Positions 3 to 5,276 of a stretch of DNA of 64,000 nucleotides are shown in pieces. Below the pieces are notes generated by a model. It worked only from the letters and a program-made list of their open reading frames with translations. It searched no databases and had not been told where the DNA came from. The stretch is from positions 1 through 64,000 of the forward strand of contig JADZAE010000047.1 of the NCBI GenBank assembly GCA_020852715.1. The letters are read 5' to 3'. This DNA comes from Deltaproteobacteria bacterium (GTDB lineage Bacteria; Bdellovibrionota_C; UBA2361; SZUA-149; JADZAE01). The position numbers and the translations under genes were made by a program. The first letter of the stretch is position 1; every line of letters begins with the position of its first letter.

Positions 3-845
3 GCTACAAGCTCTCATAATCATACGGCAAACTACGCAGCTACAACTCATGCGCACTCAATTTACTTGACTTCGCTAGCTCATAATCATACCGCTGACTA
101 CGCAGCTACTGGCCACAATCACACCGCAAACTACGCAGCTACGACTCATGCACACTCGGCCTATGTAGTCGGTAGCGGAGCTCCTAACTTAATTGCTAAG
201 TTCACAGCTGGAGCTACTGTGGGCAATTCTCGTTTATTTGATAATGGATCAAATATCGGCATTGGTACCACAGTTCCCCCTGTTTATGAGATCGGGTTAG
301 TAGGAAATGTTGGCATTGGTACCACAGCTGCCAATAAGAGCCTAACTGTCAATGGAGCAACTACTGCTCGGAATTTCACATCAACCGTAGCTACGGGAAC
401 AGCACCATATGCTGCTACCTCAACTACTCTTAATACTAATTTAAATGCTGACTTACTCGATGGACTACATTCATCGGCATTTGTAACATCACTTACTCAC
501 AACCATACTGCTGACTACGCAGCTACTACTCATGCGCACTCAGCTTACTTGACTTCGCTAGCTCATGATCATAACGCTAACTACATTACCTCTCTCGCCC
601 ACAACCATACTGCTGATTATGCTACAAGCTCTCATAATCATACGGCAAACTACGCAGCTACGACTCATGCACACTCAACTTACTTGACTTCGCTAGCTCA
701 CAATCACACCGCTGACTACGCAACTACAACTCATGCGCACTCAACTTACTTGACTTCGCTAGCTCATAATCATACCGCTGACTACGCAACTACAGGTCAC
801 GCTCACGCTGCGACCTATGCCGCGGTTACACATAGCCACTCTACT
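3..845 (+). repeat. Degenerate tandem coding repeats (His-x-His units)
   Basis: Two blocks (3-165 and about 490-845) are built from near-identical units of roughly 33-36 bases, or 66-69 for a double unit. They encode alternating HNHTADYA and THAHSTYLTSLA. Several units are almost identical at the DNA level, including silent positions. This suggests recent duplication or slippage rather than only selection on protein. Confidence 0.8.
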
Positions 846-1442
846 TTCCCATCGCTAACAATTAACGGAACAACCGGTGTCTCCTTTATCGTGGATACAT
901 CGACTCTCATAGTTGATGCGAGCAATAATCGCGTGGGTATTGGAACCATTAACCCGCAGCTGCTACTGCATATTGAAAGCGCATCGGATACAGATATTTT
1001 CCAACTACAAGATTCCGACGGAACATGTAGTTATAATCCGGAATCAGGTTCCGTAACAGTAACTTGTTCGTCCGATGAACGTTTAAAAGCCAATATTCGC
1101 GATGCTTCCTCGGCATTAGAATATTTCATGAAGCTCAGAATCAGGGATTATACGATTAGGGCTAGCGGTGATGAGACGACTGGCGTTATCGCTCAGGAAG
1201 TAATGAGTACTCATCCGGAAATGGTGCATGAAGATCAAGATGGTATGTATAGCGTAGATCAACCTTCCAGTTGGAAACTAGTAAAAGCCATTCAGGAACA
1301 ACAGAGCATCATTGAAACTCAGAAAGCAGAAATTGAGTCGCTGAGAGCAGAAATCTCCGAACAAAAAGAACGACAAAATACCATAGAAAACGAACTGGCT
1401 GAGCTTAAGAAAGCCATGCAAGGCTTTATCGATACTAGGTAG
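3..1442 (+). CDS. Tail-fibre-like protein with S74 intramolecular chaperone, 5' truncated
   Basis: The frame is open from the first bases of the window, so the N-terminus lies outside it. The TTG at 66 is internal. Most of the visible protein is a repeat of the type HNHTADYAATTHAHS separated by YLTSLA. Between repeats are GIGTT stretches typical of fibre shafts (about 255-330 and 935-960). The C-terminus from about 1068 has the SSDERLK motif of the endosialidase chaperone (peptidase S74) domain. It is followed by a receptor-like GVIAQEV segment and a long coiled coil (about 1290-1420). In this family the chaperone drives trimerisation and then cleaves itself off just before the Asp-Glu-Arg-Leu-Lys. 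A cell-surface adhesin or a phage-derived fibre are both possible; no other phage gene is visible. Confidence 0.85.
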   Translation, partial: ATSSHNHTANYAATTHAHSIYLTSLAHNHTADYAATGHNHTANYAATTHAHSAYVVGSGAPNLIAKFTAGATVGNSRLFDNGSNIGIGTTVPPVYEIGLVGNVGIGTTAANKSLTVNGATTARNFTSTVATGTAPYAATSTTLNTNLNADLLDGLHSSAFVTSLTHNHTADYAATTHAHSAYLTSLAHDHNANYITSLAHNHTADYATSSHNHTANYAATTHAHSTYLTSLAHNHTADYATTTHAHSTYLTSLAHNHTADYATTGHAHAATYAAVTHSHSTFPSLTINGTTGVSFIVDTSTLIVDASNNRVGIGTINPQLLLHIESASDTDIFQLQDSDGTCSYNPESGSVTVTCSSDERLKANIRDASSALEYFMKLRIRDYTIRASGDETTGVIAQEVMSTHPEMVHEDQDGMYSVDQPSSWKLVKAIQEQQSIIETQKAEIESLRAEISEQKERQNTIENELAELKKAMQGFIDTR

Positions 1443-1538: not shown

Positions 1539-1931
1539 ATGTATAGTTTAATTGTTGAAGATAACTTTTCTGACCGTAAGTTATTACAGCGATTTTTACA
1601 GGAGTATGGAGAAGCAAATATTGCCAGTAATGGCTAAGAGGCGCTCGATGCTTTCGATAGCGCCCATCGAGATGGTAAGCCTTATGATATTATTTTTCTT
1701 GATATAAAAATGCCCGGCTTAGATGGCAAAGAGGTGCTTAACATTATTCGTAACTAAGAAAAGGAATTAGGCATCGGCGGGAAAAAAGCGGTCAAAGTAG
1801 TAATGGTCACAGCAATGGAAGGTGCGAAAAATGTTTTAGATGCTTTTTGGGGTGGATGTGAAGCTTATCCACATAAACCCATTGACAAAGAAACATTAAA
1901 AAGAACTTTGAAAGATTTGGAGATAGACTAA
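1539..1931 (+). pseudogene. CheY-like response regulator broken by two in-frame TAA codons
   Basis: A 130-codon reading frame starts at ATG 1539 behind a strong ribosome site (AAGGAGG, 1523-1529). It is a complete single receiver domain: acidic pair Glu7/Asp8, phospho-acceptor Asp55 (FLDIKMPG), Thr91 and Lys113 (HKPIDK). Two TAA codons interrupt it, at 1635-1637 (codon 33) and 1755-1757 (codon 73). No frameshift is seen and the flanking residues fit the family well (NG-x-EALDAF, IRN-x-EKELG). The simplest reading is a recently inactivated gene. Readthrough or assembly error are less likely alternatives. Confidence 0.8.
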
Positions 1932-2765: not shown

Positions 2766-3882
2766 GGGCAAGCACCTTTAAATACTGCTCGGCACTGGCT
2801 TGAGCGCTGAATAAGAATGCTCGCTGCCGGCCGGCTTCAGTCGTTTTTTGCGCGGTTTCTTTGTCCCTTAAAACAGACAAAATCGCCTGAGCTAAGGCTA
2901 GCGAATCATTCACCGGCACCAAAACGCCACTGACATTATTTTCTATGATCTCTGCCGGTCCCGATGGGCAATCGCTACTGATCACCGGTAGCTTACAAGC
3001 CATCGCCTCAACAAGAACGTTACCTAAACCTTCCCAGAGAGAAGAAAGGACAAAAACATCGGCACGACTAAAATAGCAATATGGGTTCTTGGTGAATGGT
3101 AATATTTTGGCGGATTCGCTAAGTTGTAATTTATTAATTAAATCCTCAAGTCCTTGCTGCTCAGGACCGGAACCAATAATTAATAAGCGACAGTCAAGTT
3201 TCTCACTTACCTGTTTAAAAGCTTCGATCAATGAAGAAAAGTTTTTTTGTTTGGTTAAACGGCCACAGGCAACAATCACCGGTTTGGATTTTTTTTGCAG
3301 CCAGAGATCCGGACATTCTTGCTTTGCTGCAGCAATGATACTGTCATCTAAGATAGCATTGTAAATAGTCGTTGTTTTTCTTTGTAGATAAGAATTCTCT
3401 TTAATCAGACTAGCGACTACGCCCCGCGAGCAGCCAACCAGATGGTCAAAAAAGCCTAGAATATAAGGGGAAATAGTGAATAATAACCTTGTTTTTATAC
3501 TGTCACTTAGTCGCCGCTCAGCAGCTATATCCATCTGAATTGAAGCCACCAATTTAGGTTTGATTTTTAATCCCGATATCCAAGTACTTAACAAAACAAC
3601 TGCGGCGGCATGATCCTGTAGGGCTAGGATTATATCGGGCTTAAATTTTTTTATGAACCTTGCCAGCGGTAAAATAGCCTTTAGCACGCGGGAAGCTCCC
3701 AGTTCAACCACTTCAATCCCTTCGGGCAAAAAAGCAAGGAGCTGTCCTTCTTTACGGGCTAGTCCTAAAGTGACATTATATTCTTTTTGTAAAAAAGGTA
3801 ACAGGCGCACCAAATGCATCTCAGCCCCACCGCCGGCAAGAGAGGAGGAAAAGATCAGGAGTTTCTTTTTTTCTAACATCAT
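2758..3882 (-). CDS. Glycosyltransferase family 4
   Basis: This is a GT-B fold retaining glycosyltransferase of about 374 residues. The N-terminal SSSLAGGGAEMHLVRLLPF is the acceptor-side motif of GT4 enzymes. The C-terminal half has VACGRLTKQKNFSSLIEAF and the donor-site region SSLWEGLGNVLVEAMA with the E-x7-E pair. The start is the ATG at 3882, which forms an ATGA overlap with the stop of the polymerase-like gene upstream. An in-frame extension to 3912 exists but has no better ribosome site. It belongs to a three-gene minus-strand operon for surface glycan synthesis. Confidence 0.88.
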   Translation of the reverse strand: MMLEKKKLLIFSSSLAGGGAEMHLVRLLPFLQKEYNVTLGLARKEGQLLAFLPEGIEVVELGASRVLKAILPLARFIKKFKPDIILALQDHAAAVVLLSTWISGLKIKPKLVASIQMDIAAERRLSDSIKTRLLFTISPYILGFFDHLVGCSRGVVASLIKENSYLQRKTTTIYNAILDDSIIAAAKQECPDLWLQKKSKPVIVACGRLTKQKNFSSLIEAFKQVSEKLDCRLLIIGSGPEQQGLEDLINKLQLSESAKILPFTKNPYCYFSRADVFVLSSLWEGLGNVLVEAMACKLPVISSDCPSGPAEIIENNVSGVLVPVNDSLALAQAILSVLRDKETAQKTTEAGRQRAFLFSAQASAEQYLKVLAHV

Positions 3883-5276
3883 CTGCGCTGCACCAAAGTA
3901 AATAACCAACAAATAAGCAAGCCCGGAACAAATAAAAGCAGCGCGCTAATTATACTGGATGTAATCGGATAAACATTAAACAAAAGCAGCATATACAATA
4001 AAAATATCAGGGTGGAACGATCGCTTGTCTGAAATAGTGAGTAGACACTTTTGTGAAAACAGCCATATAAAGCAAAAGCTAAAACCACGCCTAAGTAACC
4101 GAAATTCCAATAAGCTTCTCCTATTGGACCCGGGGGAATACCAACATTTACATCAAAAAAAGTCTCGCCTACTAAGCCATCAATCAAGCCAAATTTTTCC
4201 GGCCAAAATTGGCGTGGAATCCAACAAAGAAACGCTGCTAAATAACTCCGGCCATATAAATATCCATCTTGGCTCGGAACATAATGTAAGATTGGATAAA
4301 CAGCTTTGCGCACACTGGATCGCAAAATCAATTCTTTTTGCGTTTCTACCAACATGCTTTGTGCGCTTAACACTTTGTCCCAATCAAAAGCCGCTTGTTT
4401 CTGTAACTGAGTACGTGCAGCGCCCCAACAGCCGACAAAAAACATAATTAAGGTTAAGGTAAGGGCAAAACCAAATTTAGAAAATCTCTGGCGATTATAA
4501 ATCCAAAGCAGAAAACCGATGACAACAATATTGATAATATAACTCCGACTACCACCTAACAGAAGCATCAACAAAAGCGAAACGATTAAGCTTAACCAAT
4601 AAATAACTTTTTTACCGGCCCTGTTGTCTAGCGACCACCAAATCAGACAAGAGACAGCCGCTGCATAAGTGAGCATGGCCAAATAGCCGATACCGGTTAA
4701 CGCTGATTTTCGCCCACCTTGCCAGCTGGCAATATGTGCACCTATGCCGCCGGAAAGCCCAATAAAAATGGTAAAAACAAGCAATGAAAGCAGAACTAGC
4801 AAAACCGCTTTTAAGTCAAAAGATTTTCTGATTGTTAGGAACTTTGCTTTACTTAGAGGCGGAAAATAAAAATAGGCTAGATAATAACTAAACAAGCTAA
4901 TAGCCAAAAGCAACTGTTCTTCCGCCATTAAGGCCGCTATCTGTTCTTCGTTTAAAAATGGCAGTGCATCATTTTCAAAAATGAGTAGCGATAAACCCTC
5001 GCCGCTTATTGCCTGCAGCAAATAAAGAAAAAACAGGCGAATGGCGCTGATTAAAGTGTTAAAAACAAGAGGATGAAACCAGACATAATTTTGGCGATAA
5101 AAAATAAAAGGATATAGCAGTAAGGCAATATGCAATAAACGCAGAAGAAACAGCTTCCAATAGATAAAGGAAGCATGGTCAAGCGCGATAAAAAAACAAT
5201 CAAACAAAGAAAACGCAAAAATAGTGCAGACAGAAAATCGCAGCCAAGGCCGCAGTTGGTAAGATCGATCTTTCAT
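3879..5276 (-). CDS. Wzy-like oligosaccharide repeat unit polymerase
   Basis: This polytopic membrane protein of 465 residues has roughly eleven to twelve hydrophobic segments. The region WIPRQFWPEKFG followed by GPIGEAYWNFGYLG is the pattern I associate with O-antigen or oligosaccharide repeat unit polymerases: a periplasmic loop with Pro-Arg, then Glu-x-x-x-Asn-Phe-Gly. Such proteins join lipid-linked repeat units in the periplasm. It is the first gene of an operon with the two glycosyltransferases downstream, which supports the role. An O-antigen ligase (WaaL type) is an alternative. No flippase is visible in the window. Confidence 0.65.
   Translation of the reverse strand: MKDRSYQLRPWLRFSVCTIFAFSLFDCFFIALDHASFIYWKLFLLRLLHIALLLYPFIFYRQNYVWFHPLVFNTLISAIRLFFLYLLQAISGEGLSLLIFENDALPFLNEEQIAALMAEEQLLLAISLFSYYLAYFYFPPLSKAKFLTIRKSFDLKAVLLVLLSLLVFTIFIGLSGGIGAHIASWQGGRKSALTGIGYLAMLTYAAAVSCLIWWSLDNRAGKKVIYWLSLIVSLLLMLLLGGSRSYIINIVVIGFLLWIYNRQRFSKFGFALTLTLIMFFVGCWGAARTQLQKQAAFDWDKVLSAQSMLVETQKELILRSSVRKAVYPILHYVPSQDGYLYGRSYLAAFLCWIPRQFWPEKFGLIDGLVGETFFDVNVGIPPGPIGEAYWNFGYLGVVLAFALYGCFHKSVYSLFQTSDRSTLIFLLYMLLLFNVYPITSSIISALLLFVPGLLICWLFTLVQRR

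Follow-up and report, generated by a model that had tools for sequence, protein, structure and literature searches.

A regular His-x-His ladder in a chromosomal S74-type fibre gene of a Deltaproteobacteria bacterium: a candidate metal-binding shaft shared with phage fibres

The fibre gene at the contig edge

The window, by which we mean the whole stretch of 64,000 nucleotides that was analyzed, starts at the first bases of contig C47 (JADZAE010000047.1) and opens with the 3′ part of a fibre gene. The features recognized in this gene are as follows.

3–1442, forward strand: S74-type fibre gene, last 479 codons; open frame, the window start being the start of contig C47
15–155, forward strand: HxH block 1, five His-x-His (HxH) motifs at 11-residue spacing (residues 5–51), by the contig end
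258–362, forward strand: GIGTTVPPVYEIGLVGNVGIGTTAANKSLTVNG, capping-loop-like GIGT segments (about residues 84–120) of a beta-helix of the S74/mosaic adhesive trimeric (MAT) type, the motif being as in PMC10769870
441–497, forward strand: LNADLLDGLHSSAFVTSLT, fibre motif of the form NADLLDGxxSxxF (NADLLDGLHSSAF) between the HxH blocks
498–839, forward strand: HxH block 2, eleven HxH motifs at a spacing of 11 (once 12), residues 166–279
840–1070, forward strand: predicted mature tip, residues 280–356 (~77 residues), with VGIGTINPQLLLHIES, placed by its location immediately ahead of the serine at which S74 would cleave
1071–1226, forward strand: S74 chaperone/protease domain, with SDERLK at 1071–1088 and predicted self-cleavage before Ser357
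1260–1427, forward strand: putative coiled-coil-like C-terminal tail (IQEQQSIIETQKAEIESLRAEISEQKERQNTIENELAELKKAM), judged from its sequence

The initial annotation had described 16 HxH motifs, spaced about every 11–12 residues, and both the count and the spacing are exact in this frame. The motifs (HNH, HAH, HDH, and one HSH) form a first block at residues 5, 16, 27, 38, and 49 and a second at residues 166, 177, 188, 200, 211, 222, 233, 244, 255, 266, and 277, giving 13 spacings of 11 residues, one of 12, and a single gap of 117 residues, not noted initially, that parts the two blocks. Sixteen is a minimum, as the 5′ part of the gene lies beyond the contig end. The histidines are concentrated in the motifs, which hold 32 of the 36 in the frame, and the array far exceeds chance, with composition-matched shuffles (n = 10,000) having a mean of 2.6 HxH and a maximum of 10. 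At the DNA level, a pattern of four HxH with an 11-residue period matched seven times in the window vs. none in 100 dinucleotide-preserving shuffles. Two main unit types alternate, HNHTADYAATT, in which the Tyr lies at +6 from the first His, and HAHSAYLTSLA, in which it lies at +5, and the DNA of block 2 carries a 66-bp tandem repeat (496–794).

The joining of these repeats to an S74 chaperone, also proposed initially, is well founded: residues 357–408, at the C-terminal end, match Peptidase_S74 (PF13884) at 38.5 bits (cut-off, 22), and the SDxxxK catalytic motif is present as SDERLK at residue 357. The PHROG matches of the frame are to phage tail fibre families. We have high confidence that the product is a trimeric S74 fibre.

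Downstream of the fibre gene are glycosyltransferases, followed by dapA, dnaA, dnaN, recF, gyrB, gyrA, and other housekeeping genes (names assigned by reading the translations). These 62 kb show no evident phage genes, and the DNA upstream is absent from the assembly. Because of its housekeeping neighbors and the lack of evident phage genes among them, we conclude that the fibre gene lies among ordinary chromosomal genes and not in a prophage. Directly after it, a complete response-regulator receiver frame (1539–1931, forward strand; MYSLIVEDN...KPID...) contains two in-frame TAA codons (1635 and 1755) and looks like a recent pseudogene.

Ladders in the same genome and beyond

The HxH ladder is found at four loci on four contigs of the genome, with 46 HxH units in total. 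Besides that in the window, these are:

Contig C56, 1–954: ladder of 10 HxH with a different C-terminal tip, without S74
End of contig C34 (contig end at position 258016), minus strand: 1861 codons, 13 HxH, S74
Contig C75 (L013, about 1150–2800): ladder of 7 HxH; the gene is decayed and has a C56-type tip

Since contigs C47, C56, and C34 each terminate inside HxH repeats, their copy numbers are minimum values. The family is chromosomal and has both kinds of tip, S74 in C47 and C34 and the other tip in C56 and the decayed C75 copy, so that shaft and tip are freely combined between genes. The NADLLDG-type motif adjoins HxH blocks in the C34 paralogue as well, and a similar motif is present in L155, L163, and L202. 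Within the arrays of the four loci the next unit always follows at 10–12 residues and none of the 46 units has lost its His pair; the His codons are mixed (CAT 34/CAC 12 and CAC 26/CAT 20) and other positions vary. Intact pairs amid mixed codons and varied positions are what selection acting on the two histidines would be expected to leave.

The decayed C75 gene has frameshifts and stops and still contains a GIGT segment, YadA-head-like TALGYSAL repeats, and its seven HxH ahead of the C56-like tip. Both non-S74 loci, on contigs C56 and C75, adjoin genes for secreted-looking repeat proteins (L011, 1100–3082 forward and 3640–4209 reverse; L013, 759–1133 reverse) with the repeat WAKRxGGTGADxGxGxAxDSxNNxIxxGxxTGNADxNGDGDxTDGGAES; these are possibly part of a linked surface system.

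Among the 46 genomes searched in the phylum, the ladder was found only in the source genome, whose family has no other sampled member. An extra pattern match in the relative G035 was rejected as noise, as it equals its backward control. Among the searched relatives, S74 turned up in a single further genome of the class. The protein concerned (L279) looks secreted and has a collagen-like stretch, in keeping with a view of HxH arrays and collagen-like stretches as possible alternatives for a trimeric shaft.

The initial annotation knew of no description of so extended an array in a bacterial chromosomal protein, and had suggested a search of genomes for the same repeat. That search found the repeat in viral contigs, in bacteria, and in one archaeon, and the array is not unique. 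With one Tyr added to the pattern of four HxH at an 11-residue period, the DNA scan picked out 88 stretches among viral contigs and another 66 among genomes sampled one per species (without the Tyr the pattern gave many poly-His and CAY-repeat frames, and the counts are those of the Tyr version with a filter). After removal of poly-His there were 71 distinct fibre-like proteins with the ladder, from phages, bacteria, and one archaeon, for which the consensus over relatives is H-[ND]-H-D-x-x-Y-[AS]-x-[IL]-x. The relatives (L230, L240, L202, L173, L274, and others) have the same unit and register as the window fibre. They differ in the Asp that follows the second His in their consensus, whereas the window fibre has Thr or Ser there and alternates two unit types. 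Viral L230 has 18 units in an unbroken run with both Tyr types, and the window units match its units in both forms (Tyr +5 and +6). A protein of 3299 codons on viral contig IMGVR_UViG_3300048586_000134 (L240) contains 76 HxH, many of them as 11-residue HNHDxxY units, and its ladder is possibly the richest of its type. Both exceed what is seen in the window.

Some relatives share the S74 motif (viral proteins L272, L274, and L042) and others are secreted-looking chromosomal proteins. Examples of the latter are L202, from an Actinomycetota metagenome-assembled genome, with 25 HxH and NADLLDG-type motifs, and L173, from a Deltaproteobacteria genome, with a signal-peptide-like start, a beta domain, four HxH, and VGIGTDNPTTKLDV; L163 and L209 also look secreted. 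The ladder is present in addition in Myxococcota proteins and in the archaeon Methanocalculus (L186). Some of the cases on genome contigs may be prophages.

No family in Pfam or NCBIfam covers the 11-residue repeat, and its PHROG matches are weak, give it no name, and are confined to families of unknown function. Searches with the repeat region by tblastn and by a related-locus search gave no matches in the phage, viral, and genome collections, probably as a result of low-complexity filtering. As a shaft repeat, the HxH-Tyr ladder is common, unnamed, and structurally unsolved.

Two other kinds of HxH repeat were seen in viral contigs. A second 11-residue type, [PN]-x-HTH-[PQN]-[FV]-x-[IF]-x-[IL]-P (L118, L123, L132, L064, and L113), has a beta-strand-like alternation and is nearer to T4 gp37 in style. 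In a third type (L031, L068, L127, L030, and L072), typified by DSHSHSITVDSESHAHDASSANDTHDHSGSSS, an HxH recurs every 9–13 residues.

Probable metal binding and alternative readings

Trimeric fibres and spikes in which HxH motifs bind an axial metal include T4 gp37, the R1 and R2 pyocin fibres, P2 gpV, and the spikes of phi92 and R2 pyocin (PMC6116203). In the T4 gp37 needle (PDB 2XGF), seven iron ions are held by histidines along the trimer (PMC6116203), and substitution of either of two histidines (H929A or H931A) results in no plaques (PMC6957217). T4 gp12 has Zn, bound via HxH, after refolding (PMC6116203), and the stem of the 80alpha receptor-binding protein holds Fe with six His (PMC7048315).

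The sequences of the ladder are consistent with a role for the two histidines as a pair. When units were set by their Tyr/Phe spacing in the 71 proteins, outside the search pattern, both His were present 122 times and a single His 67 times, with most of the listed single-His units found outside arrays. Were the two independent, about 28 pairs would be expected, a comparison to be read without a p-value, as related sequences are not independent. AlphaFold2 monomer models were of low confidence (mean pLDDT of 34 for residues 1–356 alone and 45.5 for block 2 plus tip with 13 relatives), with a pLDDT below 55 in every block, and the placing of 7 of the 11 block 2 HxH fully within strands comes from an unreliable model. 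Searches of the PDB with the frame and with array profiles found no 11-residue HxH array among solved structures and, by phmmer and hmmsearch, no gp37. Their weak matches were to one unit of 80alpha FibU (E 0.58) and, via the GIGT segment, to fibre protein 8ojn (E 0.39), which we take to be one of the MAT fibre structures. The analogy to the solved HxH fibres is therefore one of motif and not of homology.

By that analogy, we consider it probable that the array binds metal, given a trimer. The metal-stacked needle of the T4 gp37 kind proposed in the initial annotation stands as far as an S74-capped fibre with periodic HxH, as in the solved six-His iron fibres, is concerned; no sequence kinship to gp37 was found. 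Gp37 has eight HxH, vs. 16 in the window fibre, at irregular spacings (9, 9, 14, 14, 32, 37, and 141), without the Tyr register, without S74, and with no homology found to the window array. The window fibre may work like the gp37 needle without being its relative.

The same trimeric fibre might instead use its inward-facing His pairs for packing and hydrogen bonding, as metal-free layers or a pH-dependent lock in which any metal is incidental. The units do retain their Tyr and, in most relatives, the Asp after the second His, pointing to other packing interactions, and no array of this type is present among solved structures. Against this, where trimeric fibres and spikes have been solved their HxH binds metal (PMC6116203, PMC7048315), and the two histidines stay together as a pair, and we regard metal-free layers as rather unlikely.

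We think it improbable that the gene is a prophage tail fibre and not a cellular adhesin. The best profile matches to phage tail fibre families, the frequency of the repeat in viral contigs, and the missing upstream DNA would all suit a prophage, but the 62 kb that follow hold glycosyltransferase and housekeeping genes and no evident phage genes, the C34 paralogue adjoins cellular methyltransferase genes, and the ladder recurs at separate loci on four contigs.

The suggestion in the initial annotation of a metal sensor or sink drew no support from neighbors or sequence. A surface protein rich in His, with a role in buffering or sensing metal, would account for 32 histidines in 16 pairs within 479 residues, but the strict 11-residue register common to phage fibres points to structure, no metal transporter or regulator is evident beside the fibre gene in the window, and small His-rich proteins from the same scan (e.g., from Helicobacter) have irregular poly-His, making this reading very improbable. 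Equally remote is a tandem-repeat assembly artefact, with the true gene having more or fewer repeats, as might be suspected from the 66-bp repeat and the contig ends within HxH repeats: the units differ in sequence, unique DNA lies on both sides of block 2, and the objection concerns copy number and not the existence of the array.

A proposed model and its relation to known fibres

The reading that we favor, with fair though not strong confidence as a whole, is of a secreted, self-trimming trimeric fibre with a metal row along its shaft. The gene product, whose N-terminus lies beyond the contig, would be secreted and form a homotrimeric fibre on the cell surface, probably acting as an adhesin. 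Its C-terminal S74 domain would bring the three chains into register and then cut itself off before Ser357, leaving a beta-helical tip on a long shaft. Each 11-residue unit, H-x-H-x-x-(x)-Y, would place two histidines per chain on the threefold axis, forming one six-His octahedral metal site, most likely for iron, and a row of at least 5 + 11 metal ions would lock the three chains and stiffen the shaft. This shaft module also occurs in phage tail fibres and is joined to different tips in different genes.

The closest layout that we found is that of the S74 subgroup of MAT fibres in Bdellovibrio bacteriovorus (Bd3182; PMC10769870). In common with the window family, MAT fibres are chromosomal, have S74 (SDxxxK) and non-S74 tips and GIGT capping-loop-like segments, and occur in several copies per genome with swapped tips; by comparison, the main text of the MAT paper makes no mention of HxH, histidine, or metal (PMC10769870). 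The signal peptide and conserved ~130-residue beta domain that define MAT fibres would fall in the missing 5′ part of the window gene. A single divergent query for such an N-terminus (from L173) gave no convincing match in the source genome, and an apparent MAT N-terminus on contig C82 proved to be a subtilase-like protein. VGIGTINPQLLL (residue 311) matches the MAT capping-loop motif V-G-G/N-pi-X-X-P-X-X-X-L only when the motif is widened by one hydrophobic position following VG; as printed, the motif may have lost a symbol.

Among fibres with HxH sites, the R1 and R2 pyocin fibres (6CL5, 6CL6), P2 gpV, the phi92 spike, and the 80alpha stem each have, as described, one axial six-His Fe site and no ladder. 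Six or seven HxH are predicted to hold iron along the shafts of the Alteromonas phage R22Y tail fibre (PMC11705849) and Burkholderia phage E094 gp23 (PMC8174754); these are fewer sites than in the window, known by prediction only, and in R22Y the inner ones follow one another at about 22 residues. In the open-access literature we found no description of regular HxH arrays in cellular proteins, and the most HxH metal sites described for any one fibre were seven, all such fibres being from phages (PMC11705849, PMC8174754, PMC6957217).

HxH metal sites in fibres have been known singly or as the seven irregular sites of T4 gp37. For a ladder of regular period, in which every 11 residues might hold a metal and which is common in phages and present in cellular surface fibres, we found neither a family entry nor a solved structure. 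We propose tentatively, at slightly less than even odds, that the trimeric shafts of phages and of bacterial surface fibres share a general and so far unnamed component, the unit H-x-H-x-x-(x)-Tyr, that each unit holds one metal ion, in rows of at least 10 ions, and that assembly is metal-dependent. If the metal row is real, long, stiff fibres could be built from it in a simple modular fashion, and fibre assembly would depend on the supply of metal. Phage and bacterial fibres would also be a countable store of bound iron, as has been put forward for marine phages in the "Ferrojan horse" hypothesis (cited in PMC11705849).
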